Assembly (NCBI RefSeq): GCF_021405525.1
Contig: NZ_JAGQAG010000001.1
Coordinates: 434,001 to 498,000, forward strand
Source: Ruegeria pomeroyi
Lineage (GTDB): Bacteria; Pseudomonadota; Alphaproteobacteria; Rhodobacterales; Rhodobacteraceae
DNA: 64,000 nucleotides
Reading direction: 5' to 3'
Shown here: positions 5-13,838 of the stretch, piece by piece
Position numbering within the stretch: the first letter of the stretch is position 1
Layout of the letters: each line of letters begins with the position of its first letter
Made by a program: the position numbers and the translations under genes
The notes under the pieces: generated by a model
What the model saw: only the letters and a program-made list of their open reading frames with translations
Told to the model about the DNA's origin: nothing
Database searches by the model: none

Positions 5-1063
5 ATGACCTATCGCAGAAAGATTCTGGGCCTGATCGGCGGCGCTGCAGTTGCGGCTCTGGCCACCGGGTTCAGCGCCGGCACAGCACTGGCGCAAGAG
101 GTTACGCTGAAACTGCACCAGTTCCTGCCGGCGCAGGCCAATGTGCCGAAACTGGTCCTGGACGTCTGGGCCGACGGCGTTGAAAAGGACTCGGGCGGCC
201 GTATCAAGGTCGAGCGCTATCCCTCGATGCAGCTGGGCGGCAAGCCGCCGGAACTGATGGATCAGGCGATCGACGGCGTTGCCGATGTGGTCTGGACCGT
301 GGTCGGCTATACGCCGGGCCGCTTCCCCTCGACCGAGGTGTTCGAACTGCCCTTCATGATGACCAACGCGCGTGCGGTCAGCCACGCGTATTGGGAAATG
401 TTCGAAAAGCACATGAAGGACGACGAGTTCAAGGACGTGCATATCCTGGGCACCTGGGTGCACGGGCCGGGCATGATCCATACCGCCGATCCGGTGGAAA
501 CCCCGGCCGATTTGCAAGGCATGAAAATCCGCGGCGGCTCGCGCTCGGTCAACTCGCTGCTGACCAAGTTGGGCGCCACCCCGGTCGGTATGCCGGTGCC
601 CGCGGTGCCCGAGGGGCTGAGCAAGGGTGTAATCGACGGCACCACCATCCCGTGGGAGGTGACGACGGCCCTCAAGGTGCCGGAACTGGTCGAGAACCAT
701 ACCGAGTTCGAGGGCCGCGCGCTGTACACGCTGACCTTCGTGCTGGCGATGAACAAGGCCAAGTATGACAGCCTGCCCGACGATCTGAAGGCGGCGGTCG
801 ATAAGAATTCGGGCCTCGAATTCTCGGTCTTTGCCGGTGGGACACAGGCCGATTCCGATGGTCCGGCGCGTCAGGTGGCCGAGGATCTGGGCAACAACAT
901 CATCACCATCGATGCCGCAGGGGTCGAGGAATGGCGTGCCCTGGCCCAGCCCATTTATGACGAATGGCTGGCTGACATGGAATCCAAGGGCAAGGACGGT
1001 AAGGCGCTTCTCGAAGAGGCGCAGATGCTGATCGAGAAGTATACGCCGCAATATTCCAACTGA
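5..1063 (+). CDS. TRAP transporter periplasmic solute-binding protein (DctP family)
   Basis: A 352-residue extracytoplasmic solute receptor of the TRAP family, which captures a carboxylate in the periplasm and hands it to the two membrane subunits encoded next. Residues 1-30 form a signal peptide (RRK, hydrophobic stretch, AxA site ALA|QE). The remainder has the DctP pattern, including the conserved KIRGGSR segment near residue 175 that normally supplies the ligand-binding arginine. The ligand is not readable from sequence. A feruloyl-CoA-synthase-type ligase downstream suggests an aromatic acid, by analogy with the p-coumarate/ferulate TRAP system TarPQM. The ATG is at base 5, so promoter and ribosome site lie mostly outside the window. 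Confidence 0.93.
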   Translation: MTYRRKILGLIGGAAVAALATGFSAGTALAQEVTLKLHQFLPAQANVPKLVLDVWADGVEKDSGGRIKVERYPSMQLGGKPPELMDQAIDGVADVVWTVVGYTPGRFPSTEVFELPFMMTNARAVSHAYWEMFEKHMKDDEFKDVHILGTWVHGPGMIHTADPVETPADLQGMKIRGGSRSVNSLLTKLGATPVGMPVPAVPEGLSKGVIDGTTIPWEVTTALKVPELVENHTEFEGRALYTLTFVLAMNKAKYDSLPDDLKAAVDKNSGLEFSVFAGGTQADSDGPARQVAEDLGNNIITIDAAGVEEWRALAQPIYDEWLADMESKGKDGKALLEEAQMLIEKYTPQYSN

Positions 1064-1077
1064 TCCGGCAACTGCCA

Positions 1078-1108
1078 GCGGATACGGCGCGCCCTGCGCC
1101 GTATCCGC
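1078..1108 (+). promoter_or_regulatory. Perfect intergenic stem-loop between TRAP dctP and dctQ
   Basis: Two exact 13-base arms (1078-1090 and 1096-1108) flank a 5-base loop. No T-run follows, so it is unlikely to be a simple rho-independent terminator. Its place right after the binding-protein gene suggests an mRNA-stabilising or partial read-through structure that raises receptor over permease expression. The structure is seen; the role is inferred. Confidence 0.6.
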
Positions 1109-1136
1109 CACGCGGCCTGAAACCGACCGAGGACCG

Positions 1137-1721
1137 ATGCATAAACTGATGACGGGGTTGGCCAGAACGTTGGCCATCATCGGCGGGATCGTTCTGAGCC
1201 TTCTGATCCTGCTGACCTGCGCCTCTATCCTGGGCCGTTTGCTGAACGGCTTCTTCCACGGTGACTTCATGCAATCTGTTGCCCCCGGTCTGGCCGATTG
1301 GGCCATCGGAATAGGTATCGGCCCGGTGAACGGCGATTTCGAACTGGTCGAGGCCGGAGTGGCCTTTGCCATCTTCTGCTTTCTGCCGCTCTGCCAGATC
1401 ACTGCCGGGCATGCGTCGGTCGATATTCTGGCCAACTCGTTCAGCCGCCGGGTGAACCGCATCCTGCGGATGCTGACCGAATTGACCTTTGCCGCTGTCC
1501 TCGTCCTGATCGCGTGGAAACTGTTCGACGGCATGATGAGCAAACGCGCCTATGCCGAGACCACCTTTCTGCTGCAATTTCCCATCTGGTGGGCCTATGC
1601 GCTCAGCTTTGTCGCGGCCTTCGCGGCGGCGTTGGTGGGAACTTATATGGGCGCGGTGCGCACCTATGAATGCTTTACCGGCCGTATCCTGGTCTGGGAC
1701 GGGGTGGAGGCAACACAGTGA
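1137..1721 (+). CDS. TRAP transporter small permease (DctQ family)
   Basis: A 194-residue integral membrane protein, the four-helix small subunit of a TRAP transporter. Hydrophobic segments lie near residues 15-38, 78-100, 115-135 and 150-172. The ATG follows a GAGGACCG ribosome-binding region. The stop overlaps the GTG start of the large permease (GTGA at 1718-1721), so the two permease subunits are translationally coupled, as usual for dctQM. It works only with the neighbouring receptor and DctM. Confidence 0.9.
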   Translation: MHKLMTGLARTLAIIGGIVLSLLILLTCASILGRLLNGFFHGDFMQSVAPGLADWAIGIGIGPVNGDFELVEAGVAFAIFCFLPLCQITAGHASVDILANSFSRRVNRILRMLTELTFAAVLVLIAWKLFDGMMSKRAYAETTFLLQFPIWWAYALSFVAAFAAALVGTYMGAVRTYECFTGRILVWDGVEATQ

Positions 1722-3217
1722 GCGCGCTTGAAATCGGTATTGCCTCGTTTCCTGCCCTGATGGTGCTGATCTTTCTCAGGGTGCCCATCGGTCTGGCCAT
1801 GTTCCTGGTCGGGCTTTTGGGGCTGGTGCTGGTCACCGACGGCACCCAGGTCGCCTTTGCCCGGCTCAAGAACGAAACCTATACGACCTTTTCCAGCTAT
1901 TCGCTGACCATCGTGCCAATGTTCCTGCTGATGGGCCATTTCGCGACACTGGGCGGCATGTCGACCGCTTTGTTCAAGGCCGCAGAGGGCTGGCTGGGCC
2001 ATCGCAAGGGTGGTATCGCCATGGCCTCGATCGGGGCCTGCGCCGGTTTTGGTGCCATCTGCGGCTCGTCTCTGGCGACGGCGGCAACCATGGGCCGCGT
2101 CGCCCTGCCGGAACTGCGCCAATACGGCTATGCGGGCGGGTTTTCCACCGCGACGCTGGCGGCGGGCGGAACGCTGGGTATCCTGATCCCGCCCTCGGTG
2201 GTGCTGGTGATCTATGCGATCCTGACCGAACAGAATATCGCCAAGCTGTTCCTGGCCGCCTTCATCCCCGGCATCATGGCGGCGCTGGGCTATGTCATCG
2301 CCATCTCGGTCTATGTGCGGCTTTACCCCGACAGCGCCGGTACGCGCCCGCCGGTCCCCTATGCCGAACGGTTCGCTGCCCTGTTGCAGGTCTGGCCGGT
2401 GCTTCTGGTCTTTGGTCTGGTTGTAGGCGGCATCTATCTGGGGTGGTTCACCCCGACCGAAGGCGCCGCCGTGGGTGCGCTGGGCACGGGCGTGATTGCC
2501 TGGCTGAATGGTGGGCTGACCCGCGCCAGCCTCTCTGAAAGTTTTCTGGTCACGGCGCGTTCTACCGCGATGATCTTCTTCATCGTGCTCGGCGCCGCCT
2601 TCTATAACGGGTTCCTTGCCCTGACCCAGGTGCCACAGGAGTTGTCGAATTTCGTGGTTGCCCAAGGCTACAGCCCCTGGGTGGTGCTGGCGCTGATCCT
2701 CGCCTTCTACCTTGTGTTCGGTTGTCTGATGGACAGCCTCAGCATGATCCTTTTGACGATCCCGATCTTCTTTCCGGTGATCTCGGCGATGGATTTCGAT
2801 CTGGTGTCGCTGGCCGCGATGCAGGCCGATGCAGCAATGGAGGTGCTGAAGGCGGGCGTGCCCGAAGCGATGAGCGCCGAGGCGCTGGCGGGCATCAAGG
2901 ACGCCATTGCCAGCGGAGCCGAACTGACCCGCGAGCAGATGAAAGAGCTGGGTATCCGCGTGACGCGCGGCATGGCCAACCGGGCCGAGGCCGAGCATGT
3001 GGCGATCTGGTTCGGCATTCTCGTGCTGATCGTGGTCGAGGTCGGGTTGATCACACCACCGGTGGGGATGAACCTGTTCATCATCAACGCGATGGACCGG
3101 ACCACCCGCATGGCCGACACCTACAAGGCGGTGATGTTCTTTGTCGGTTCGGACATCGTACGCGTGATCATTCTGGTCGCGTTCCCCGCGATCACTCTGT
3201 TTCTGTTGCCGGGATAG
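1718..3217 (+). CDS. TRAP transporter large permease (DctM family) with a long C-terminal insertion
   Basis: A 499-residue multi-span permease that catalyses sodium-coupled uptake of the bound solute. The GTG start at 1718, overlapping the dctQ stop, is preferred over the upstream in-frame ATG at 1670, which lies inside dctQ. Typical DctM patterns are present: GILIPPSVVLVIYAI near residue 160 and GLITPPVGMNLFIIN near residue 445. The family is usually about 425-435 residues. The excess comes from an Ala/Glu/Met-rich soluble stretch at residues 362-429, placed just before the IWFGILVLI segment. Substrate probably as for the receptor. Confidence 0.92.
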   Translation: MSALEIGIASFPALMVLIFLRVPIGLAMFLVGLLGLVLVTDGTQVAFARLKNETYTTFSSYSLTIVPMFLLMGHFATLGGMSTALFKAAEGWLGHRKGGIAMASIGACAGFGAICGSSLATAATMGRVALPELRQYGYAGGFSTATLAAGGTLGILIPPSVVLVIYAILTEQNIAKLFLAAFIPGIMAALGYVIAISVYVRLYPDSAGTRPPVPYAERFAALLQVWPVLLVFGLVVGGIYLGWFTPTEGAAVGALGTGVIAWLNGGLTRASLSESFLVTARSTAMIFFIVLGAAFYNGFLALTQVPQELSNFVVAQGYSPWVVLALILAFYLVFGCLMDSLSMILLTIPIFFPVISAMDFDLVSLAAMQADAAMEVLKAGVPEAMSAEALAGIKDAIASGAELTREQMKELGIRVTRGMANRAEAEHVAIWFGILVLIVVEVGLITPPVGMNLFIINAMDRTTRMADTYKAVMFFVGSDIVRVIILVAFPAITLFLLPG

Positions 3218-3288: not shown

Positions 3289-5076
3289 ATGACGCGATAC
3301 CTGGACCATGAGGTAGATGCCGAACGGCGTGGGGATGGCACCATCCTGCTGCGCTCGGCCCACGAGCCGGTGACCCCTGCTGCGCGCACCACCGACTGGT
3401 TGCACCACTGGGCAACCCAGACCCCGGACGCGGTGTTTCTGGCGGAACGCAGTGGTGGCGCCTGGCGCACGCAATCCTACGCCGAAACCCTGGGCAGGGT
3501 CCGGGCGCTGGCCACCGGGCTGCTGGCGCGTGGGCTGGTGCCGGGTGACCGTATCCTTGTCGTCTCGGGCAACAGCGTCGATCACGGTACACTGGCGCTG
3601 GCGGCGCAATATGTGGGGCTGGTGATCGTACCAGTTGCCGAGCAATACGCCCTGATCCCCGGCGCGCTGAAACAGCTGCACTATATTCTTGGCCTGATCG
3701 ACCCGGCCATGGTCTATGCCGAGGACGGCGCGCAATTCGCTGCCGCCCTGGCGATGGAGGAGATGGCCGGCCGCCGCATCGTCGTCGGGCGCAATCCCGC
3801 GCCGGGCATGACCCTGCTGACCGACCTGGAACGCGAGAGTGGCGATATCTCGGCCGCCGCTGCTGCGGTCGGCCCAGATACCGTGGCCAAGATCCTGATG
3901 ACCTCGGGTTCGACCTCGCACCCGAAGGGGGTGCTGACCACCCAACAGATGCTTTGCGCCAACCAGGCGCAATATGCCCGCGCCCTGCCGTTCCTGACCC
4001 AACGCCCGCCCCGGCTGGTGGATTGGCTGCCATGGAACCATGTCTTTGGCGGGTCCAACAACTTCAACCAGATGCTGGCCTTTGGCGGCGCGCTCTATAT
4101 CGACGGGGGCAAGCCCGCGCCCGCGCTGATCGGCAAGACATTCGAAAACAATCGCCTGATGAACGGCACCATCGCCTACAACGTGCCGGTGGGCTTTGCC
4201 CAGTTGCGTGACGAGATGCATCGCGACCCCGAGTTGAAGCACCATTTCTTCGCCGATCTGGACATGTTGTTCTATGCCGGGGCGTCGCTGTCGGCGGATG
4301 TCTGGCGCGACCTCAGTGAGATGGCCGCCGAGGTGCGTGATACCCAACCGCTGATCACTACCTGCTGGGGCATGACCGAGACCGCGCCCGCCTGCATTTT
4401 CCAGCACGTGCCTGCCAATCTGCCGGGTATCATCGGTGTGCCGCTGACCGGGGTGACCGCCAAACTGGTGCCGGCGGACGGTGGCCGGTACGAACTGCGT
4501 GTCGCGGGCCCCAATGTCTTTGCCGGTTATTTTCGCGACCCAGAAAAGACCGCCGCCGCCTTTGATGACGAGGGGTATTTCTGCACTGGCGACGCGGTGG
4601 CGATGGTTGATGCGGATGACCTGTCGCAAGGGTTACGGTTCGAGGGTCGTCTTGCCGAGGATTACAAGCTGGCCACCGGTATCTGGGTACGCGCCTCAGC
4701 GCTCCGGCTCGAGGTTCTGGCCGCGCTGGCGCCGCTGGCGGCGGATGTGGTCCTGACCGGCGAGGGCGAGGCCGAGATCGGCCTGCTGATCCTGCCCACA
4801 CCCGCGCTGGCCACGGGGCTGGAGGCAGAGGGTGGCGTGCTGCGCCCCGGCGCCATGGGTGACGAGATCGCAGACCGCCTGTCGCGGCTGAACGCGGATC
4901 GTGGCAGTTCCGCCCGCATCGCGCGCGCAGTGATTCTGTCAGACCCCCCGTCGATGGCTGAGGGCGAAGTCACTGCCAAGGGCAACCTCAACTTCCGCAA
5001 GGTACTGGAAAGGCGCGCAGAAATCGTTTCGCGCCTGTATGGGGACGTTGATGATGTAAGTATTTTTGTGCATTAA
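3289..5076 (+). CDS. Feruloyl-CoA synthase-type AMP-forming acid:CoA ligase
   Basis: A 595-residue ANL-superfamily ligase that adenylates a carboxylic acid and transfers it to CoA. Core motifs: SGSTSHPKGV (ATP loop, about residue 205), CWGMTETAP (about residue 360), FCTGDAV (about 430), KLATGIWV hinge (about 460) and AKGNLNFRK near the C terminus. The long N-terminal part and the hinge sequence resemble feruloyl-CoA synthases rather than benzoate-CoA ligases. The ATG at 3289 follows GGGAGGAGAGC; longer in-frame readings run back into the TRAP permease. It lies 71 bases after dctM and is probably cotranscribed with it. No adjacent enoyl-CoA hydratase/aldolase (Ech) is seen, so the substrate is uncertain. 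Confidence 0.85.
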   Translation: MTRYLDHEVDAERRGDGTILLRSAHEPVTPAARTTDWLHHWATQTPDAVFLAERSGGAWRTQSYAETLGRVRALATGLLARGLVPGDRILVVSGNSVDHGTLALAAQYVGLVIVPVAEQYALIPGALKQLHYILGLIDPAMVYAEDGAQFAAALAMEEMAGRRIVVGRNPAPGMTLLTDLERESGDISAAAAAVGPDTVAKILMTSGSTSHPKGVLTTQQMLCANQAQYARALPFLTQRPPRLVDWLPWNHVFGGSNNFNQMLAFGGALYIDGGKPAPALIGKTFENNRLMNGTIAYNVPVGFAQLRDEMHRDPELKHHFFADLDMLFYAGASLSADVWRDLSEMAAEVRDTQPLITTCWGMTETAPACIFQHVPANLPGIIGVPLTGVTAKLVPADGGRYELRVAGPNVFAGYFRDPEKTAAAFDDEGYFCTGDAVAMVDADDLSQGLRFEGRLAEDYKLATGIWVRASALRLEVLAALAPLAADVVLTGEGEAEIGLLILPTPALATGLEAEGGVLRPGAMGDEIADRLSRLNADRGSSARIARAVILSDPPSMAEGEVTAKGNLNFRKVLERRAEIVSRLYGDVDDVSIFVH

Positions 5077-5222: not shown

Positions 5223-6752
5223 ATGAGCGCAAACGCCGCGCATTACTTTGTAGACCGCCATGTCGAAGAGGGGCGCGGCGCACGCCCGGCCTTTCGCGAG
5301 GCTGCCGGCGCCCGGCGCAGGCAGAGCTATGGCGAGCTGGCCCACGACAGCGGTGCGGTTGCGGGTGCGCTCGCCCGTGCGGGCATCCCGCGCGAGGCGC
5401 GCGCGGCGATGCTGGTGCTGGATCAGCTGGAATTTCCCACCCTGTTCTGGGGCTGCCTCAAGGCGGGCGTGGTACCGGTGCCGCTGAACACGCTGCTGGC
5501 CACCTCGGTCTATGAGGTGATCCTGAACGACAGCCGTGCCTCGATCCTCTTTGTTTCCGAGGAGCTATGGCCGGTGGTGCAGCCTGCCGCGCTGGCCTCG
5601 CCGCATCTGACCCGGATCGTGGTGATCGGCGCCGCGCCCGACGGCACCCAGAGCTATGCGGATTTCGTGCAGGGTGCTGATATCCTGTCTGCGGTCGATG
5701 TCTCGCCCGACGACGTGGCCTTTTGGCTCTATTCCTCGGGCTCCACCGGACAGCCCAAGGGGGTGCGGCACGTACATGCCAGCCTCAAGGCCACCGCCGA
5801 CAGCTATGGCGCGCAGGTGCTGGGGATCGAATCGGATGACCTGGTGTTTTCAGCGGCCAAGCTGTTCTTCGCCTACGGGTTGGGCAATGGCATGACTTTT
5901 CCGATGTCGGTCGGGGCCGAGACCATCCTGTTCAACGGGCGCCCGACGCCGGATGGTGTGCGCGATATCATCGCCGCCGAGCGGCCAACCGTGTTCTGCG
6001 GGGTGCCGACGCTGTATGCCGCGATGGTTGCGATGCTCGACCGCGAGGGCGTGCCGGATGTAACGCTGCGCCGCTGTATCTCGGCAGGCGAGGCGCTGCC
6101 GGAAGAGATTGGCCGCTCTTGGCACCGGCAATGGGGGGTCGACATTCTGGACGGCGTCGGCTCGACCGAGATGCTCCATATCTTTCTGTCGAACGCGCCG
6201 GGCGACGTGGTCTATGGCACCTCTGGCCGTGCCGTGCCGGGATACGAGGTGCGGCTGGTCGATGAGAGTGGCGCCGATGTCGGACCCGGCGGGTTGGGAG
6301 AGCTTCTGGTGCGCGGCGCCTCGGCGGCGGACGGGTATTGGAACAAGCGCGACAAGAGCCGCGCCACCTTCGAGGGGGAATGGACCCGCACGGGTGACAA
6401 ATACGAGCTGACGTCCGATGGCCGCTATGTCTATTGCGGGCGCACTGACGACATGTTCAAGGTCTCGGGCATCTGGCTGTCACCGTTCGAGGTGGAGCAG
6501 GCGCTGGTGGCGCATCCCGCCGTTCTCGAAGCGGCGGTGGTGGCGGCGCGTGATGCCGACGGGCTGGAGAAACCCAAGGCCTTCATCGTGCTCAAGACGG
6601 CAGAGACCGAAGGGCTGGCCGACACGCTGCGCGATTTCGTCAAGGAGAAGGTGGGCAAGTGGAAATATCCCCGCTGGATCGAATTCGTCGAGGATTTGCC
6701 CAAGACCGCCACCGGCAAGATCCAGCGGTTCAAACTGCGCGAGGGAGGCTGA
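5223..6752 (+). CDS. bclA: Benzoate-CoA ligase
   Basis: A 509-residue AMP-forming ligase converting benzoate, ATP and CoA to benzoyl-CoA, the entry step of the box pathway. Motifs: YSSGSTGQPKGVRHVH (about residue 170), GVGSTEMLHIF (about 315), RTGDKY (about 390), CGRTDDMFKVSGIWLSP (about 405) and TATGKIQRFKLR with the catalytic lysine near the C terminus. Length and the KLFFAYGLGNG and GSTEMLHIFLSN segments are typical of benzoate/hydroxybenzoate-CoA ligases (BclA/BadA). The ATG at 5223 is preceded by a strong GGGAGGAGG. It heads a three-gene unit and sits behind a BoxR-type site. A 4-hydroxybenzoate preference cannot be excluded. Confidence 0.93.
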   Translation: MSANAAHYFVDRHVEEGRGARPAFREAAGARRRQSYGELAHDSGAVAGALARAGIPREARAAMLVLDQLEFPTLFWGCLKAGVVPVPLNTLLATSVYEVILNDSRASILFVSEELWPVVQPAALASPHLTRIVVIGAAPDGTQSYADFVQGADILSAVDVSPDDVAFWLYSSGSTGQPKGVRHVHASLKATADSYGAQVLGIESDDLVFSAAKLFFAYGLGNGMTFPMSVGAETILFNGRPTPDGVRDIIAAERPTVFCGVPTLYAAMVAMLDREGVPDVTLRRCISAGEALPEEIGRSWHRQWGVDILDGVGSTEMLHIFLSNAPGDVVYGTSGRAVPGYEVRLVDESGADVGPGGLGELLVRGASAADGYWNKRDKSRATFEGEWTRTGDKYELTSDGRYVYCGRTDDMFKVSGIWLSPFEVEQALVAHPAVLEAAVVAARDADGLEKPKAFIVLKTAETEGLADTLRDFVKEKVGKWKYPRWIEFVEDLPKTATGKIQRFKLREGG

Positions 6753-7574: not shown

Positions 7575-8000
7575 ATGTCTCTGCCGCCCCTCTCGGTTCC
7601 CTATGTTCCCGGCCAGACAGCGCGGCCGCCCGAGGGTCTGTTCGAGGCCCTGCACCAGAGCGTTCCCGGCCGGATGTCACCCGAGGATTTGACCGCTTGC
7701 CCTGCCTGGACCGCAGGCTGGACATTGTTCGATCTGGGATATTTCTGGGAGGCGCATGAGGTTTGGGAGCCGGTCTGGATGGCCTTGCCCCCGAATAGCG
7801 GCGCTCGCTACCGGGTGCAGGCGGCGATACAGTTGACCAATGCGGCATTGAAACTGCGCATGGGGCGGAGGGACGCGGCCCGGCGTCTTTGTGCCTTGGC
7901 GCGCGAGGCCGCAGCGCGGGCCGGTGGATCAGGGACGCCCGAGACATGGGGGGTTTCGTTCTGCGACCGTGTTGCCATGGTTGAGGCGCGATTCGAGTGA
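7575..8000 (+). CDS. DUF309-family protein in the benzoate operon
   Basis: A 141-residue helical protein with the DUF309 signature: LGYFWEAHEVWEPVW near residue 54 followed by QAAIQLTNAALKLRMGR near residue 77. The family's function is not established. The conserved EAHEVWE run with its histidine and acids suggests a buried polar site. It begins 3 bases after the hydrolase stop and closes the bclA operon. Why a DUF309 gene travels with benzoate activation is unclear; it may be a passenger. Confidence 0.8.
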   Translation: MSLPPLSVPYVPGQTARPPEGLFEALHQSVPGRMSPEDLTACPAWTAGWTLFDLGYFWEAHEVWEPVWMALPPNSGARYRVQAAIQLTNAALKLRMGRRDAARRLCALAREAAARAGGSGTPETWGVSFCDRVAMVEARFE

Positions 8001-8167: not shown

Positions 8168-9829
8168 ATGACCCAGCGTATCGACTTTCAGACCGACCCG
8201 TCCCGCTATCGTCATTGGCGGGTCGCGTATGATGGAGAGATCGCCAATCTCTACATGGATGTGGATGAGCAAGGCGGCCTGTTCCCGGGCTATGAGCTGA
8301 AGTTGAATTCCTATGATCTTGGTGTCGATATCGAGCTGGCCGATATCGTCCAGCGGATGCGGTTCGAGCATCCCGAGGTCAAGGTGGTGGTGTTGCAATC
8401 CGGAAAGGACCGCGTGTTCTGTGCCGGGGCGAATATCCGGATGCTGGGCGGCGCCAGCCATGCGCATAAGGTCAATTTCTGTAAATTCACCAACGAGACC
8501 CGCAACACGTTCGAGGCGGCCGAGGCCGATAGCGGCCAGAAATACATTGCGGCTGTCAAAGGTGCCTGCGCGGGTGGCGGGTACGAGTTGGCGCTGGCCT
8601 GCAACTATATCATGCTGACCAATGACAGCTCCTCTTCGGTGGCATTGCCCGAGGTGCCGCTGCTGGCGGTGCTGCCCGGCACCGGCGGGCTGACCCGGGT
8701 CACCGACAAGCGCAAGGTGCGCCGCGATCTGGCCGATGTGTTCTGCTCGGTCGAAGAGGGCGTGCGCGGCCAGCGCGCGGTTGATTGGCGGCTGGTGGAC
8801 GAGATTGCCCCAAATTCGAAATTCGACGAGGTGGTGCAAGAGCGCGCGCGGGAGTTTGCGAGCGCCAGCGCCAAACCCTCGGGCCTGACCGGGATCGCGC
8901 TCACCCCGCTTGACCGCCGCTTTGCCGAGGATGGCTCGGTCACCTATTCGACCGTTGAGGTTGTCGTGGAGCGCGAGGCGGGGCGGGCGACGCTGACGAT
9001 CTCCGGTCCGACGGACGCCGCTCCCGATACGGTCGACGCGTTGCAGGCGCAGGGCGCCGAGGCCTGGATCCTGCGCGCGGCGCGTGAGCTGGACGATGCC
9101 ATCCTGCACCTGCGGCTGAACGAACGTCAGATCGGTACGCTGGTGATCCAGACCCAGGGCGATGGCGCCGCAGTTCTGGCGCATGAGGCATTGCTTCTCA
9201 ACAATCGCGACCACTGGCTGGCCAACGAAATCCTGCAATACTGGAAGCGGGTGTTGAAGCGGGTCGACATGACCTCTCGTAGCCTGGTCGCCATTGTCGA
9301 ACATGGGTCCTGTTTCGCCGGCCCACTGGCCGAACTGCTCTGGGCGGTGGACCGATCCTATATGATGCTCGAAGAGTTCGAAGGCGATAACCGCCCGCTG
9401 GCTGCGATCACGCTCAGCCCCGGCAACTTTGGCACATACCCGATGGGCAATGACCTGACCCGGCTTGCGACCCGGTTCCTGGGCACGCCCGAGGCGGTCG
9501 AAGCCGCCCGCGCGCGCATCGGCGAGGCGCTGGAAGCGGAAGAGGCTGAGGAGCTTGGTCTGGTGACCTATGTGCTGGACGATATCGACTGGGAAGATGA
9601 GGTGCGTGTTTTCCTGGAAGAGCGCGCCAGCTTTTCTCCCGATGCAATGACCGGGATGGAGGCGAACCTGCGTTTTGCCGGACCCGAGACGATGGAAACC
9701 CGCATATTCGGCCGGCTTACCGCTTGGCAGAACTGGATTTTCCAGCGCCCCAACGCGGTGGGCCCCGACGGGGCACTGCAACGCTATGGCACCGGGGTGC
9801 GCGGCGATTACGACATGGAACGTGTGTAG
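8168..9829 (+). CDS. boxC: Benzoyl-CoA-dihydrodiol lyase / 2,3-epoxybenzoyl-CoA dihydrolase
   Basis: A 553-residue crotonase-superfamily enzyme. It opens the non-aromatic ring of 2,3-epoxybenzoyl-CoA by adding two waters, giving 3,4-dehydroadipyl-CoA semialdehyde and formate. Two crotonase-like halves are visible. The N-terminal half carries FCAGANIRMLGG near residue 85 and GACAGGGYELALACNY near residue 135, the oxyanion-hole segments; the C-terminal half carries EHGSCFAGPLAELLWAV near residue 380. Length matches BoxC. The ATG at 8168 follows GCGAGG; an in-frame TTG at 8156 is less likely. It is first in the boxC-boxB-small protein-boxA unit. Confidence 0.95.
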   Translation: MTQRIDFQTDPSRYRHWRVAYDGEIANLYMDVDEQGGLFPGYELKLNSYDLGVDIELADIVQRMRFEHPEVKVVVLQSGKDRVFCAGANIRMLGGASHAHKVNFCKFTNETRNTFEAAEADSGQKYIAAVKGACAGGGYELALACNYIMLTNDSSSSVALPEVPLLAVLPGTGGLTRVTDKRKVRRDLADVFCSVEEGVRGQRAVDWRLVDEIAPNSKFDEVVQERAREFASASAKPSGLTGIALTPLDRRFAEDGSVTYSTVEVVVEREAGRATLTISGPTDAAPDTVDALQAQGAEAWILRAARELDDAILHLRLNERQIGTLVIQTQGDGAAVLAHEALLLNNRDHWLANEILQYWKRVLKRVDMTSRSLVAIVEHGSCFAGPLAELLWAVDRSYMMLEEFEGDNRPLAAITLSPGNFGTYPMGNDLTRLATRFLGTPEAVEAARARIGEALEAEEAEELGLVTYVLDDIDWEDEVRVFLEERASFSPDAMTGMEANLRFAGPETMETRIFGRLTAWQNWIFQRPNAVGPDGALQRYGTGVRGDYDMERV

Positions 9830-9904: not shown

Positions 9905-11356
9905 ATGCTTGATCTGATCAACGTAAGTTACGACACCCAGATCCCGAACAATGTGGGTTTGAGCCAGGACAAGAAGGTGCTGAAGGCGCTGGAAAAGTGG
10001 CACCCCGGTTACATCAACTGGTGGAACGACCTGATTCCGCAGAATTTCCAGGAATCGCTGGTCTATCTGCGCACCGCTGTCAGCGTCGATCCCAAGGGTT
10101 GGGCCAAGTTCGACTATGTGAAGATGCCCGAATACCGTTGGGGCGTGCTGCTGGCGCCGCAGGTCGAGAACCGCACCATCCCGTGTGGCGAGCATTACGG
10201 GCAACCCGCCTGGCAGGAAGTGCCGGGTGAATACCGCAACCTGCTCAAGCGCCTGATCGTCATTCAGGGCGATACCGAACCGGCCTCGGTCGAGCAGCAG
10301 CGCCTGCTGGCATTGACCGCGCCCTCGCTCTACGACATGCGCAACCTGTTCCAGGTGAACGTGGAAGAGGGCCGCCATCTCTGGGCGATGGTCTATCTGC
10401 TGCACAAGTATTTCGGTCGCGACGGACGGGAAGAGGCCGATGACCTGTTGCGCCGCCAGTCGGGCAGCGAGGAAGCCCCGCGCATGCTGGGCGCCTTCAA
10501 TGAAGAGACACCGGACTGGCTGTCCTTCTTCATGTTCACCTATTTCACCGACCGCGACGGCAAGATGCAGCTGGAAAGCCTGGCGCAATCCGGCTTTGAC
10601 CCGCTCAGCCGCACCTGCCGTTTCATGCTGACCGAAGAGGCGCACCACATGTTCGTGGGCGAAACCGGCGTGGGTCGCACCATCGAGCGCACATGTCAGG
10701 TGATGAAGGAAAACGGAATTGACGACCCCTATGACACCGGCCGCATCCGCGACCTGGGGGTGATCGACCTGCCGCTGATCCAGAAAAAGCTGAACCTGCA
10801 CTACACGCTGTCGCTCGACCTGTTCGGGCAGGAGGTGTCGACCAACGCCGCCAATGCGTTCAACGCGGGCATCAAGGGCCGTTACATGGAAAGCCGGTTG
10901 AGCGATGACCACCAGTTGCAGCAGGACACCTACACCGTGTGGGATTTCGAGGATGGCAAGGCAGTACAGAAGCAGGTACCGGCGCTTACCGCGATCAACA
11001 TGCGCCTGCGCGACGACTATACCAAGGATGCCGCCGGCGGTGTCGGGCGCTGGAACAAGATCATCGAGAAACACGGCGTCGATTTCGAACTCTCGCTTCC
11101 GCACGAGGCATTCCATCGCAAGATCGGCGTCTTTGCCGACAAGCATTTCGACCCGTCGGGGCAGCCCGTCTCGGGGGCCGAATATGACGCCGGTCTGCCC
11201 AAATGGCTGCCGACGCACGCGGATGGCGATTTCATCCAGTCGCTGATGAAGCCCTGCTATGAGCCGGGTCAATACGCCCGCTGGATCGCCCCGCCCAAGG
11301 TGGGAATCGACAACCGTCCGGGCGACTTCGAATATGTGAAACTTCACATGGCCTGA
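9905..11356 (+). CDS. boxB: Benzoyl-CoA 2,3-epoxidase, oxygenase subunit
   Basis: A 483-residue class I diiron protein that inserts one oxygen atom of O2 into benzoyl-CoA to form the 2,3-epoxide, using electrons from BoxA. Helical metal-ligand segments are visible: VEEGRHLWAM near residue 155 and TEEAHHMFVGETG near residue 245, giving the expected ExxH pairs. Length and overall sequence match BoxB. The ATG at 9905 is preceded by AAGGAGGAAAGCG, one of the strongest ribosome sites in the window; an upstream in-frame GTG at 9869 lies inside a palindrome and is rejected. Confidence 0.96.
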   Translation: MLDLINVSYDTQIPNNVGLSQDKKVLKALEKWHPGYINWWNDLIPQNFQESLVYLRTAVSVDPKGWAKFDYVKMPEYRWGVLLAPQVENRTIPCGEHYGQPAWQEVPGEYRNLLKRLIVIQGDTEPASVEQQRLLALTAPSLYDMRNLFQVNVEEGRHLWAMVYLLHKYFGRDGREEADDLLRRQSGSEEAPRMLGAFNEETPDWLSFFMFTYFTDRDGKMQLESLAQSGFDPLSRTCRFMLTEEAHHMFVGETGVGRTIERTCQVMKENGIDDPYDTGRIRDLGVIDLPLIQKKLNLHYTLSLDLFGQEVSTNAANAFNAGIKGRYMESRLSDDHQLQQDTYTVWDFEDGKAVQKQVPALTAINMRLRDDYTKDAAGGVGRWNKIIEKHGVDFELSLPHEAFHRKIGVFADKHFDPSGQPVSGAEYDAGLPKWLPTHADGDFIQSLMKPCYEPGQYARWIAPPKVGIDNRPGDFEYVKLHMA

Positions 11357-11378
11357 TGCCGGACAGGGGCCGGGTCCG

Positions 11379-11408
11379 GTGGGCGGTAACATTTTGTGAC
11401 CCGCCCAC
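11379..11408 (+). promoter_or_regulatory. Stem-loop after boxB
   Basis: Perfect 8-base arms GTGGGCGG (11379-11386) and CCGCCCAC (11401-11408) around a 14-base AT-rich loop, 23 bases after the boxB stop. No T-run follows. It could protect the boxB message or dampen read-through into the downstream small gene and boxA. Role inferred. Confidence 0.45.
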
Positions 11409-11477
11409 GGATTGACGGCAGGGGTGACTCTCCTGTTCGCTGAACCCGGCCTGATCGGACAACACGAGGAACCGACC

Positions 11478-11654
11478 ATGCAGATCGACCGTTCGAAACC
11501 CGATACGCCGCGGCTGCACGCTCTCTCGGGGCAGATATCCACGCTGCAGGGACCCTGCGTCGGCTGTTCCGACTGCGTAGGGCTTTGCAAGGAGTTGATC
11601 GACACGCTTGTGGTGCCCGACCTCATCCTGACCAGGAAACGCGAGACTTCATGA
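11478..11654 (+). CDS. 58-residue cysteine-cluster protein between boxB and boxA
   Basis: A very short protein whose only four cysteines (C27, C30, C33, C37) form CxxCxxCxxxC, the spacing of a [4Fe-4S] ferredoxin half-site, in the segment GPCVGCSDCVGLC. The rest is an amphipathic N terminus and a hydrophobic LVVPDLIL segment. The ATG at 11478 follows GAGGA (11466-11470). Its stop overlaps the boxA start (ATGA at 11651-11654), so it is translationally coupled to the reductase. It could be a small Fe-S electron carrier, a cluster chaperone or a BoxA partner; none is proven. No named family is recognised. Confidence 0.75.
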   Translation: MQIDRSKPDTPRLHALSGQISTLQGPCVGCSDCVGLCKELIDTLVVPDLILTRKRETS

Positions 11655-12835
11655 ACCAGCCGTTAAAGCAGCATCTGATCGATCCCGAAATCTGTATCCG
11701 CTGCTACACCTGCGAAATGACCTGCCCCGAGCAGGCGATCGAACATGATGACCTGAATGTCGTGGTGGATGCCGCCAAATGCAATTTCTGCATGGATTGC
11801 ATCCCGGTTTGTCCGACCGGTTCGATCGACAACTGGCGGGTGGTGGACACGCCCTATTCGCTTGAAGAGCAATACGGATGGATGGACCTGCCGCCACAGG
11901 AAGAGGTGGCGGGCGACGAGGCGGGGCTGGAAGCGCTGGATGATGCCATGGCCGCCCTGCTGGCCGAGGCGCACAAGGGCGCGGGGGGCAAATCGCGCGC
12001 CCCTGCGACGGCCTCGAAGCCGACGATCAATCTCTATACGCTGGGCAAACCGGCCGAGGCGCGGGTGACGGGCAACTACCGCCTGACCGCCGAAAGCAGC
12101 GACAGCGATGTGCGCCACATCATCCTGGATTTCGGCGGCCAACCCTTTCCGGTGCTCGAAGGGCAAAGCATCGGGATCATTCCGCCCGGCACCGACGAGG
12201 CGGGCAACCCGCATCTGCCCCGGCTGTATTCGGTCTCCAGCCCGCGCGACGGCGAGCGGCCGAATTTCAACAACCTGTCGCTGACGGTGAAACGCGAACC
12301 GTACGGGATCTGCTCGAACCATGTCTGCGATCTGAAACCCGGTGACACGGTGCGGGTTACCGGGCCCTTTGGCGCCACTTTCCTGATGCCTTCGGACCCG
12401 GCGGCACATCTGCTGATGATCTGCACGGGTACTGGTTCCGCGCCCTTCCGCGCCTTTACCATGCGGCGGCAGCGCGAAAACCCCAAACTGCGCAATAGCC
12501 TGACCCTTGTTTTTGGCGCGCGCCGGCCACAGGAACTGCCGTATTTCGGGCCGCTCGGCAAGGTGCCGGAACAGTTCATGGCCAAGCATTTCGCCTTTTC
12601 CCGCCAGGACGGCGAGCCCAAGCACTATGTGCAGGATCGTTTGCGCGCCGAAGCGGACCGGGTGGGAGAGTTGCTGGCCGATCCCCAGACCCATATCTAT
12701 GTCTGCGGTCTCAAGGCGATGGAACAGGGCGTGGAGGAGGCGTTCAAGGATATCGCCCGTGCCAAGGGCATCGACTGGACCGGCCTGCGTGACCGTATGC
12801 GCGACGAAGGGCGCTATCACGTCGAGACTTATTGA
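11651..12835 (+). CDS. boxA: Benzoyl-CoA 2,3-epoxidase, NADPH-dependent reductase subunit
   Basis: A 394-residue iron-sulfur flavoprotein that passes electrons from NADPH through FAD and two [4Fe-4S] clusters to BoxB. N-terminal bacterial-type ferredoxin domain: CIRCYTCEMTCPEQ near residue 17 and CNFCMDCIPVCPTG near residue 47. An Ala/Gly-rich linker (about 85-120) follows, then a ferredoxin-NADP reductase module with RLYSVSSP (FAD, about residue 194), CTGTGSAPFRAF (NADP, about 258) and YVCGLKAMEQGVEEAF near the end. The ATG at 11651 overlaps the stop of the small cysteine-cluster gene; in-frame upstream sequence belongs to that gene's shadow. Confidence 0.95.
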   Translation: MNQPLKQHLIDPEICIRCYTCEMTCPEQAIEHDDLNVVVDAAKCNFCMDCIPVCPTGSIDNWRVVDTPYSLEEQYGWMDLPPQEEVAGDEAGLEALDDAMAALLAEAHKGAGGKSRAPATASKPTINLYTLGKPAEARVTGNYRLTAESSDSDVRHIILDFGGQPFPVLEGQSIGIIPPGTDEAGNPHLPRLYSVSSPRDGERPNFNNLSLTVKREPYGICSNHVCDLKPGDTVRVTGPFGATFLMPSDPAAHLLMICTGTGSAPFRAFTMRRQRENPKLRNSLTLVFGARRPQELPYFGPLGKVPEQFMAKHFAFSRQDGEPKHYVQDRLRAEADRVGELLADPQTHIYVCGLKAMEQGVEEAFKDIARAKGIDWTGLRDRMRDEGRYHVETY

Positions 12836-12920: not shown

Positions 12921-13838
12921 ATGACCGAGATCACCAATTTCCGGGGCGAAAGCACGCCCAACAGCGCGCGCGACCAGGCCGAGGCCGAGGTGGCGGCCCT
13001 GATCGCGCGGGTGGGCGAGCGGGTGCGCGCGGCGCGTCAGCGGCGTGGCATTCCGCGCCGGGTGCTGTCCGAGATCTCGGGTGTGTCGCCGCGCTATCTG
13101 GCACAGCTCGAGGCGGGCGAGGGCAATATCTCGATCGGCTTGTTGCAGCGGGTGGCAACCGCGCTGGATCATCGGATCGAATGGCTGGTGGGCGAGGATG
13201 ATCCCTGGTCTTCGGACGCGATGCGGGTGGCCGATCTTTACCGGGTCGCTGGGATGGAAACCCAGGCCGAGGTGCTGCGGCTCTTGAGCCCCGCGCCCTC
13301 GCTTGCGGCGCGGGCCGGGCGCATCTGCCTGGTGGGCCTGCGCGGGGCGGGAAAATCGACCTTGGGCCAGCGGTTGGGCGCGGCACTGGGCCTGCCTTTT
13401 GTGGAACTGAACGACGAGATCGAAGACCAGGCCGGAATGCCGGTGGCCGAGGTCATGGCGCTTTACGGTCAGGAAGGATATCGCAAGCTCGAGGCGCAGG
13501 CGGTGGCCCGGATCGTCGCCACCCATGACGCGCTGGTACTGGCGGTGGCAGGCGGGATCGTGGCCGAGCCCGAGACCTACAAGACCCTGCTGGCGCATTT
13601 CCACACGGTATGGCTGCGCGCTTCGCCGGTGGAGCATATGGAACGGGTTCGCGCCCAGGGGGATGAGCGGCCGATGGCGGGCAATCCCGAAGCGATGGAA
13701 GAGTTGCGCTCGATCCTGACCAGCCGCGAGGCGCTTTACGGCAAGGCAGAGGCGCAGATCGATACCTCGGGTCAGAGCGTCGAGGCCTCGCTTGTCCAAC
13801 TCACCCGCCTTGTGCGCGAACGCGGTTATCTGAACTGA
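12921..13838 (+). CDS. boxR: BoxR-type regulator: XRE helix-turn-helix fused to a shikimate-kinase-like domain
   Basis: A 305-residue regulator of benzoyl-CoA catabolism. Residues about 30-95 are an XRE helix-turn-helix (RRVLSEISGVSPRYLAQLE as recognition region). Residues about 130-300 resemble shikimate kinase, with Walker A GLRGAGKSTLG near residue 140 and a VAGGIV segment near residue 210. In characterised BoxR proteins this kinase-like domain senses benzoyl-CoA, which releases the repressor. It follows boxA by 85 bases and has its own BoxR-type site. Its sites ahead of bclA, boxC and boxR support a local regulon; none was seen ahead of the ABC genes. Confidence 0.94.
   Translation: MTEITNFRGESTPNSARDQAEAEVAALIARVGERVRAARQRRGIPRRVLSEISGVSPRYLAQLEAGEGNISIGLLQRVATALDHRIEWLVGEDDPWSSDAMRVADLYRVAGMETQAEVLRLLSPAPSLAARAGRICLVGLRGAGKSTLGQRLGAALGLPFVELNDEIEDQAGMPVAEVMALYGQEGYRKLEAQAVARIVATHDALVLAVAGGIVAEPETYKTLLAHFHTVWLRASPVEHMERVRAQGDERPMAGNPEAMEELRSILTSREALYGKAEAQIDTSGQSVEASLVQLTRLVRERGYLN

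Follow-up and report, generated by a model that had tools for sequence, protein, structure and literature searches.

In Ruegeria pomeroyi, a very short gene lies between boxB and boxA, which encode subunits of the benzoyl-CoA epoxidase system. Is its product a part of that epoxidase, or does it do something else? The first-pass annotation of the window (the whole 64,000-nucleotide stretch of DNA analysed here) had proposed a possible extra component of BoxAB. We compared the gene, its neighbours and its relatives across the family, the order and the class, both where the box genes are present and where they are missing.

The small gene and its gene cluster

The gene cluster lies entirely on the plus strand of the window. 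It begins with a TRAP transporter, DctP-DctQ-DctM (5..3217), whose DctP closely resembles PDB 7nr2/7nra (542 bits) and which is presumably specific for aromatic compounds; close relatives of this transporter directly precede the small gene in roseobacters without box genes. Next come two ligase-type ORFs, one that we take from its sequence to be acyl-CoA ligase-like (3289..5076) and one of the benzoate-CoA ligase family (5223..6752; TIGR02262). They are followed by a DUF309 protein (7575..8000), by boxC, encoding epoxybenzoyl-CoA dihydrolase (8168..9829; TIGR03222, 952 bits), and by boxB, encoding the benzoyl-CoA 2,3-epoxidase subunit (9905..11356; NCBIfam TIGR03225, 936 bits). Downstream of the small gene lie boxA, whose product is the reductase subunit and contains ferredoxin motifs as well as FAD/NAD domains (11651..12835; TIGR03224, 541 bits), and a gene for a regulator with HTH and shikimate-kinase-like parts (12921..13838; NF006015), for which we assume the name boxR. 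The DUF309 gene is seen repeatedly in box clusters, and two box-less genomes (G238 and G241) have it between TRAP and the small gene. A plasmid search returned boxB/boxA-type matches in 14 records.

The small gene itself (11478..11654, plus strand) runs from an ATG at 11478 to a TGA stop at 11652-11654. Its 58-residue product has exactly four cysteines (positions 27, 30, 33 and 37), all within CVGCSDCVGLC, as the first-pass annotation had described; the sequence and its aligned members contain a single CX2CX2CX3C motif and no second one. The gene is single-copy in the R. pomeroyi genome, where two further matches reach E-values of 0.6-0.7. A whole-protein search found it in 8 of 41 genomes, including its own, at 37-100% identity. 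In an alignment of seven sequences (that of the window and six relatives with 38-93% identity; the eighth match, from G013, is frameshifted and was omitted), all four cysteines, Gly35, Pro47 and Leu51 are kept. The same core is conserved in larger alignments (28 and 91 sequences), although their cysteine invariance is not independent evidence, because the motif was itself used in part to collect the members; aligned members are mostly 47-60 residues long. Taken together, these data confirm a genuine gene, conserved beyond chance, whose protein family occurs in roseobacters and their relatives. The protein scores below every Pfam and NCBIfam cut-off, the nearest matches being weak ones of Fer4 and CcoG type. 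A literature search, conducted largely outside subscription papers, found no paper on it, and the accessible parts of PMC12442348, PMC3305630, PMC9873259, PMC12920312 and PMC5489048 do not mention it.

The start codon of boxA (ATG 11651) overlaps the stop codon of the small gene by the four nucleotides ATGA, in agreement with the position and overlap given by the annotation. Among 94 input loci, both ends could be placed in 50, and 45 of these have the exact overlap; removal of nine duplicates leaves 37 of 41 distinct loci. Such a pattern implies that translation is coupled with that of BoxA. In G099 (locus L040), boxA lies on another contig and the small gene still stands behind boxB.

Readings that would require recoding were rejected. 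An in-frame TGA read as selenocysteine in eight matches is in all eight the normal terminal stop, and the TGA of G112 lies within a chance match that is not a copy of the small gene. For G013 and G162, in which the frame breaks after the third cysteine, sequencing error or decay is likelier than programmed frameshifting, since both breaks occur at G-runs and boxC of G013 is also split between frames.

The predicted iron-sulphur site and its relation to known systems

A profile search of solved structures gave PsaC as the best match, with an E-value of 3e-5 summed over the two motifs of PsaC, each of which alone reaches about 0.1-0.2. Together with the motif, this match favours a predicted [4Fe-4S] site in the small protein. 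Against Fer4_18 the window protein scores 15.6 bits, below the cut-off of 27, and the lowest E-values among 91 family members are no better than 0.0019 and 0.0011, with the matches spread across dissimilar Fe-S families. Two AlphaFold runs (pLDDT 64 and 61) predicted a low-confidence, all-helical monomer with no strands; these models lend no support to a ferredoxin half fold and are too weak to exclude one.

The C-[VIL]-G-C-x-x-C spacing is common to the small protein, the 2[4Fe-4S] bacterial ferredoxins and PsaC, but the small protein has one motif only and a conserved glycine two residues before the fourth cysteine. In two-cluster ferredoxins the fourth cysteine of each motif serves the other cluster, so that four cysteines in a single motif would suit a homodimer. 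A further comparison is offered by half-ferredoxins. The accessible text of PMC12648291 describes designed examples ('semidoxins') and the testing of one natural peptide, PD1 of Thermoanaerobacter; it uses a length criterion of about 30 residues, with a broader set under 60, and presents extant half-ferredoxins as rare and so far found only in thermophilic anaerobes. In the accessible part of PMC13348028, natural candidates are likewise limited to anaerobes, and one of these two sources, both dating from 2025-2026, states that the functions of the natural examples are untested. The likeness of the small protein to half-ferredoxins lies in its single CX2CX2CX3C motif and very small size, and binding of an Fe-S cluster by a monomer or a dimer is conceivable for it too. 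It differs from them in length (mostly 47-60 residues in its family versus about 30), in its O2-using gene cluster, in its helical low-confidence model and in an Fe-S cluster that is predicted only; unlike both half-ferredoxins and ferredoxins, it has no proline after the fourth cysteine. Roseobacters, moreover, are aerobes.

The related diiron epoxidase acting on phenylacetyl-CoA likewise has a small extra operon gene, whose DUF59/SufT-like product PaaD is, in the accessible text of PMC4498308, required by the PaaABCE epoxidase in vivo and dispensable to it in vitro. At about 170 residues, PaaD is far longer than the 58-residue protein, and a Pfam search found no DUF59 domain in the small protein or its family members, which places it outside the PaaD/SufT family. 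The same partial source describes BoxA as holding two [4Fe-4S] clusters and being needed only in small amounts (PMC4498308). The N-terminal ferredoxin domain of BoxA, the product of the neighbouring gene, has two full motifs and forms part of a reductase, whereas the small protein has one motif; BoxA is also present in family genomes that have no small gene.

Distribution of the small gene among genomes with BoxB

BoxB was found in 46 of 198 genomes of the family (Rhodobacteraceae). A CxxCxxCxxxC ORF follows boxB in 28 of these 46 (a count that takes in one frameshifted copy, L036, one divergent copy, L020, and L040 of G099), compared with three carriers among 152 BoxB-negative genomes (G125, G212 and the frameshifted G162). 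The enrichment corresponds to a Fisher p of about 1e-18, or about 1e-13 if only raw profile matches are counted (27/46 versus 9/152); carriers were detected by motif in BoxB genomes and by profile in BoxB-negative ones, and both p values are too small because the genomes are related and thus non-independent. Matches in G010, G014, G098, G112, G164 and G189 (E-values from 6e-4 to 0.009) were inspected as possible carriers and rejected, none having the four-cysteine motif.

At the other 18 of the 46 family loci, no small gene follows boxB. The gap between boxB and boxA measures 3-117 nt in 14 of these loci and 209 nt in one, and the remaining three have no boxA beside boxB (one is at a contig end); in carriers with an adjacent boxA, the gap is 193-402 nt. 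Presence of the small gene is clustered in a BoxB tree (53 rows), yet requires at least nine gains or losses, five of which well-supported branches make unavoidable. When the search was extended to the class, 66 of 337 genomes proved to have BoxB, and 64 of these lie outside the family and are not the genome of the window. Loci from 28 of these 64 were examined, 11 with boxA next to boxB and 17 with no BoxA relative beside boxB, where 700 nt downstream were scanned; none of the 28 has a motif ORF behind boxB. In the family genomes G158 and G075 (loci L094 and L095, respectively), the order is boxC-boxB-boxR and no BoxA match in the assembly exceeds the cut-off; BoxB may use another reductase there.

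An order-wide profile search of 390 genomes yielded 69 matches in 68 genomes, 62 of them adjoining boxB or boxA. The annotation had proposed to check whether homologues sit beside boxA or elsewhere, and since they are mostly box-linked, the idea of an extra component passes that check. The seven matches away from box genes are in G404, G533, G255, G238, G241, G522 (one of its two copies) and G405, the last so weak (E 3.7e-4) that we judged it a chance match. A scan of named species gave 49 loci, of which 29 are box-linked (28 assigned by script, plus L222), 15 directly follow a TRAP DctM, four lie elsewhere (L227, L242, L246 and L253) and one, L255 of Embleya hyalina, is a chance match to what we take to be a ClpX-like zinc finger. 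These proportions are no census, since the pattern used for the scan is biased towards close relatives of the window, and 16 of the 49 loci are already in the genome sets under G handles.

Copies outside box clusters

No match to BoxB was found in eight of the nine genomes whose small gene lies away from box genes, the ninth being G522. For the 17 named loci away from box genes, 15 genomes show no BoxB match, a further one has a match below the threshold (E 9.5e-4), and the last has a true BoxB; this exception is Antarctobacter heliothermus, which is G522 and common to both sets. Combined, 24 of 25 distinct genomes with non-box copies have no BoxB above the cut-off, several of them being drafts or MAGs. 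The two copies in A. heliothermus (L202 and L163) have diverged; an intact box cluster contains one of them, and the other stands in a remnant made up of TRAP, ligase and boxR genes.

Gene order suggests how the box-less loci may have arisen. In Ruegeria, boxC-boxB-small gene-boxA-boxR is followed by a convergent pair of genes that, like the other neighbours named here, we assign from sequence as presumed YcaQ and LacI. In Leisingera the order is a fumarylacetoacetase-like gene (though not at every locus), TRAP, the small gene, in some cases a thioesterase gene, and YcaQ-LacI. The box-less loci still have the small gene and, in most cases, TRAP, together with the YcaQ-LacI pair found beside the Ruegeria box cluster, so that excision of the box genes would be the simplest reading. 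In the genome of the window (L258), the LacI-YcaQ pair lies upstream of a fumarylacetoacetase-like gene and TRAP, on the opposite side from its place bordering the box cluster in Ruegeria relatives, which implies a local rearrangement. Remnants of boxA are also visible: behind the small gene of Sedimentitalea arenosa stands a 14-codon remnant, MAALLMQRLVDPKI-stop, that matches the start of the window BoxA, MNQPLKQHLIDPEI, at 7 of 14 positions, and a decayed boxA follows the small gene of Marinibacterium, where the small ORF reads on to 74 residues.

Box-less copies are under selection. Median omega (Nei-Gojobori, over pairs) is 0.13 in 12 box-less copies (10 from named Leisingera plus two; pair range 0 to 0.54) and 0.12 in six box-linked Ruegeria copies, values that come from short sequences and non-independent pairs. 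Within the box-less set, pN/pS is 0.11 in the cysteine half versus 0.29 in the N-terminal half. Five more distant box-less pairs give omega values of 0.25-0.82, the highest for G404-G212. Selection on box-less copies as strong as on box-linked ones was seen in the one group that could be measured well, that of Leisingera type. Among the box-less genomes, no common partner was identified.

The upstream region

A perfect palindrome, GTAACATTTTGTGAC (GTNACA-N3-TGTNAC), lies upstream of the small gene (11386..11400, plus strand). It is the sole match in the window at up to one mismatch; at least one match also occurs in 45 of 100 shuffles, so that the palindrome alone is no rarer than chance allows. 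Conserved with the palindrome region is GGATTGAC (11409..11416, plus strand), possibly part of a promoter. The arrangement GTAACATTTTGTGA-N10-GGATTGAC is recognisably kept in box-linked Ruegeria and box-less Leisingera, and not in the other aligned lineages. A consensus scan found no promoter and no terminator. Around the palindrome, a GC-rich inverted repeat (window 11370-11420) has a computed folding energy of -25 kcal/mol; its stem is not obviously kept across all Ruegeria relatives.

Discussion

The small gene is usually coupled to boxA; box systems in general can do without it, and it is under selection where they are missing. How, then, should the annotation's extra component of BoxAB be judged? 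The tie to the box system holds (28/46 versus 3/152 genomes, with 62 of 69 order-wide matches adjoining boxB or boxA); the word 'dedicated' does not fit, because 18 of 46 family loci and all 28 out-of-family loci examined do without the small gene, and genomes without BoxB retain it under selection. An obligate component would be present wherever BoxAB is and absent or decaying elsewhere, whereas 24 of 25 genomes with non-box copies keep the gene in the absence of a BoxB above the cut-off, with a median omega of 0.13 in the set measured. BoxA, furthermore, already has its own ferredoxin motifs. Despite the position between boxB and boxA, the ATGA coupling and the enrichment with BoxB, we therefore consider a dedicated extra subunit or mini-ferredoxin of the epoxidase unlikely. 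A role as a small regulator or sensor of the aromatic-acid locus that responds to metal or redox state and binds Zn or Fe-S seems slightly less improbable, though still doubtful: the palindrome region common to box-linked and box-less copies, the stand-alone occurrence in several genomes, the lack of a fixed enzymatic partner and the helical low-confidence model would all suit it, but no DNA-binding family is matched in Pfam or NCBIfam, the C-x-G-C-x-x-C spacing is of ferredoxin type, and a boxR-type regulator is already in the cluster.

The 15 of 49 loci in which DctM of a transporter closely related to the window TRAP immediately precedes the small gene could point to an accessory of a transporter importing aromatic acids. 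Such a role is quite improbable, given that a DctP at least 75% identical occurs in eight BoxB-negative family genomes, only two of which have the small gene, that the 62 of 69 order matches adjoin box genes instead, and that some copies have no such TRAP nearby. Least probable of all is a leader ORF that merely couples or tunes boxA translation, for which the ATGA overlap at 37 of 41 distinct loci speaks; against it stand selection at the amino-acid level in BoxB-less genomes and the copy of G099, which stays behind boxB with boxA elsewhere.

Our preferred reading, to which we assign a probability of about 0.5, is that the small protein is a non-essential accessory of the box system, a [4Fe-4S] carrier that also has other clients. 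A non-essential helper with other clients is favoured by the ATGA coupling, by the small amounts in which BoxA is needed and by the PaaD precedent. Its single CxxCxxCxxxC motif would most likely bind one [4Fe-4S] cluster in each chain (or two in a homodimer). The protein and BoxA are probably synthesised together, since the small gene follows boxB and its stop overlaps the boxA start in most carriers. As a small electron or cluster carrier, the small protein could keep BoxA or BoxB reduced or supplied, a help useful in the cell and dispensable for catalysis. It may also serve clients besides the Box system, as is suggested by its retention under selection after loss of the box genes. We infer the Fe-S cluster, the partners and the helper role, with Fe-S binding predicted from the motif only.

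A bolder version of this carrier role, which we hold tentatively and as rather less probable, is that the small protein is a widespread natural half-ferredoxin of aerobes, a [4Fe-4S] homodimer or monomer that is coupled to an O2-using epoxidase and also stands alone. For now it represents a one-motif family with no matching model in the Pfam and NCBIfam versions searched, and its half-ferredoxin status is putative. If true, a natural half-ferredoxin in aerobes would contradict the anaerobes-only view found in the accessible parts of PMC12648291 and PMC13348028, and would provide a genetic system for probing the role of such proteins. [4Fe-4S] binding, if true, would mean that aerobic cells can make use of a single-motif protein beside an oxygenase. 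The distribution of the small gene already corrects the notion that BoxAB has a third subunit. Furthermore, the box-less roseobacters amount to a natural deletion experiment, and because they have lost the epoxidase and kept the small gene, genetic work on cultured strains can look for its wider role.
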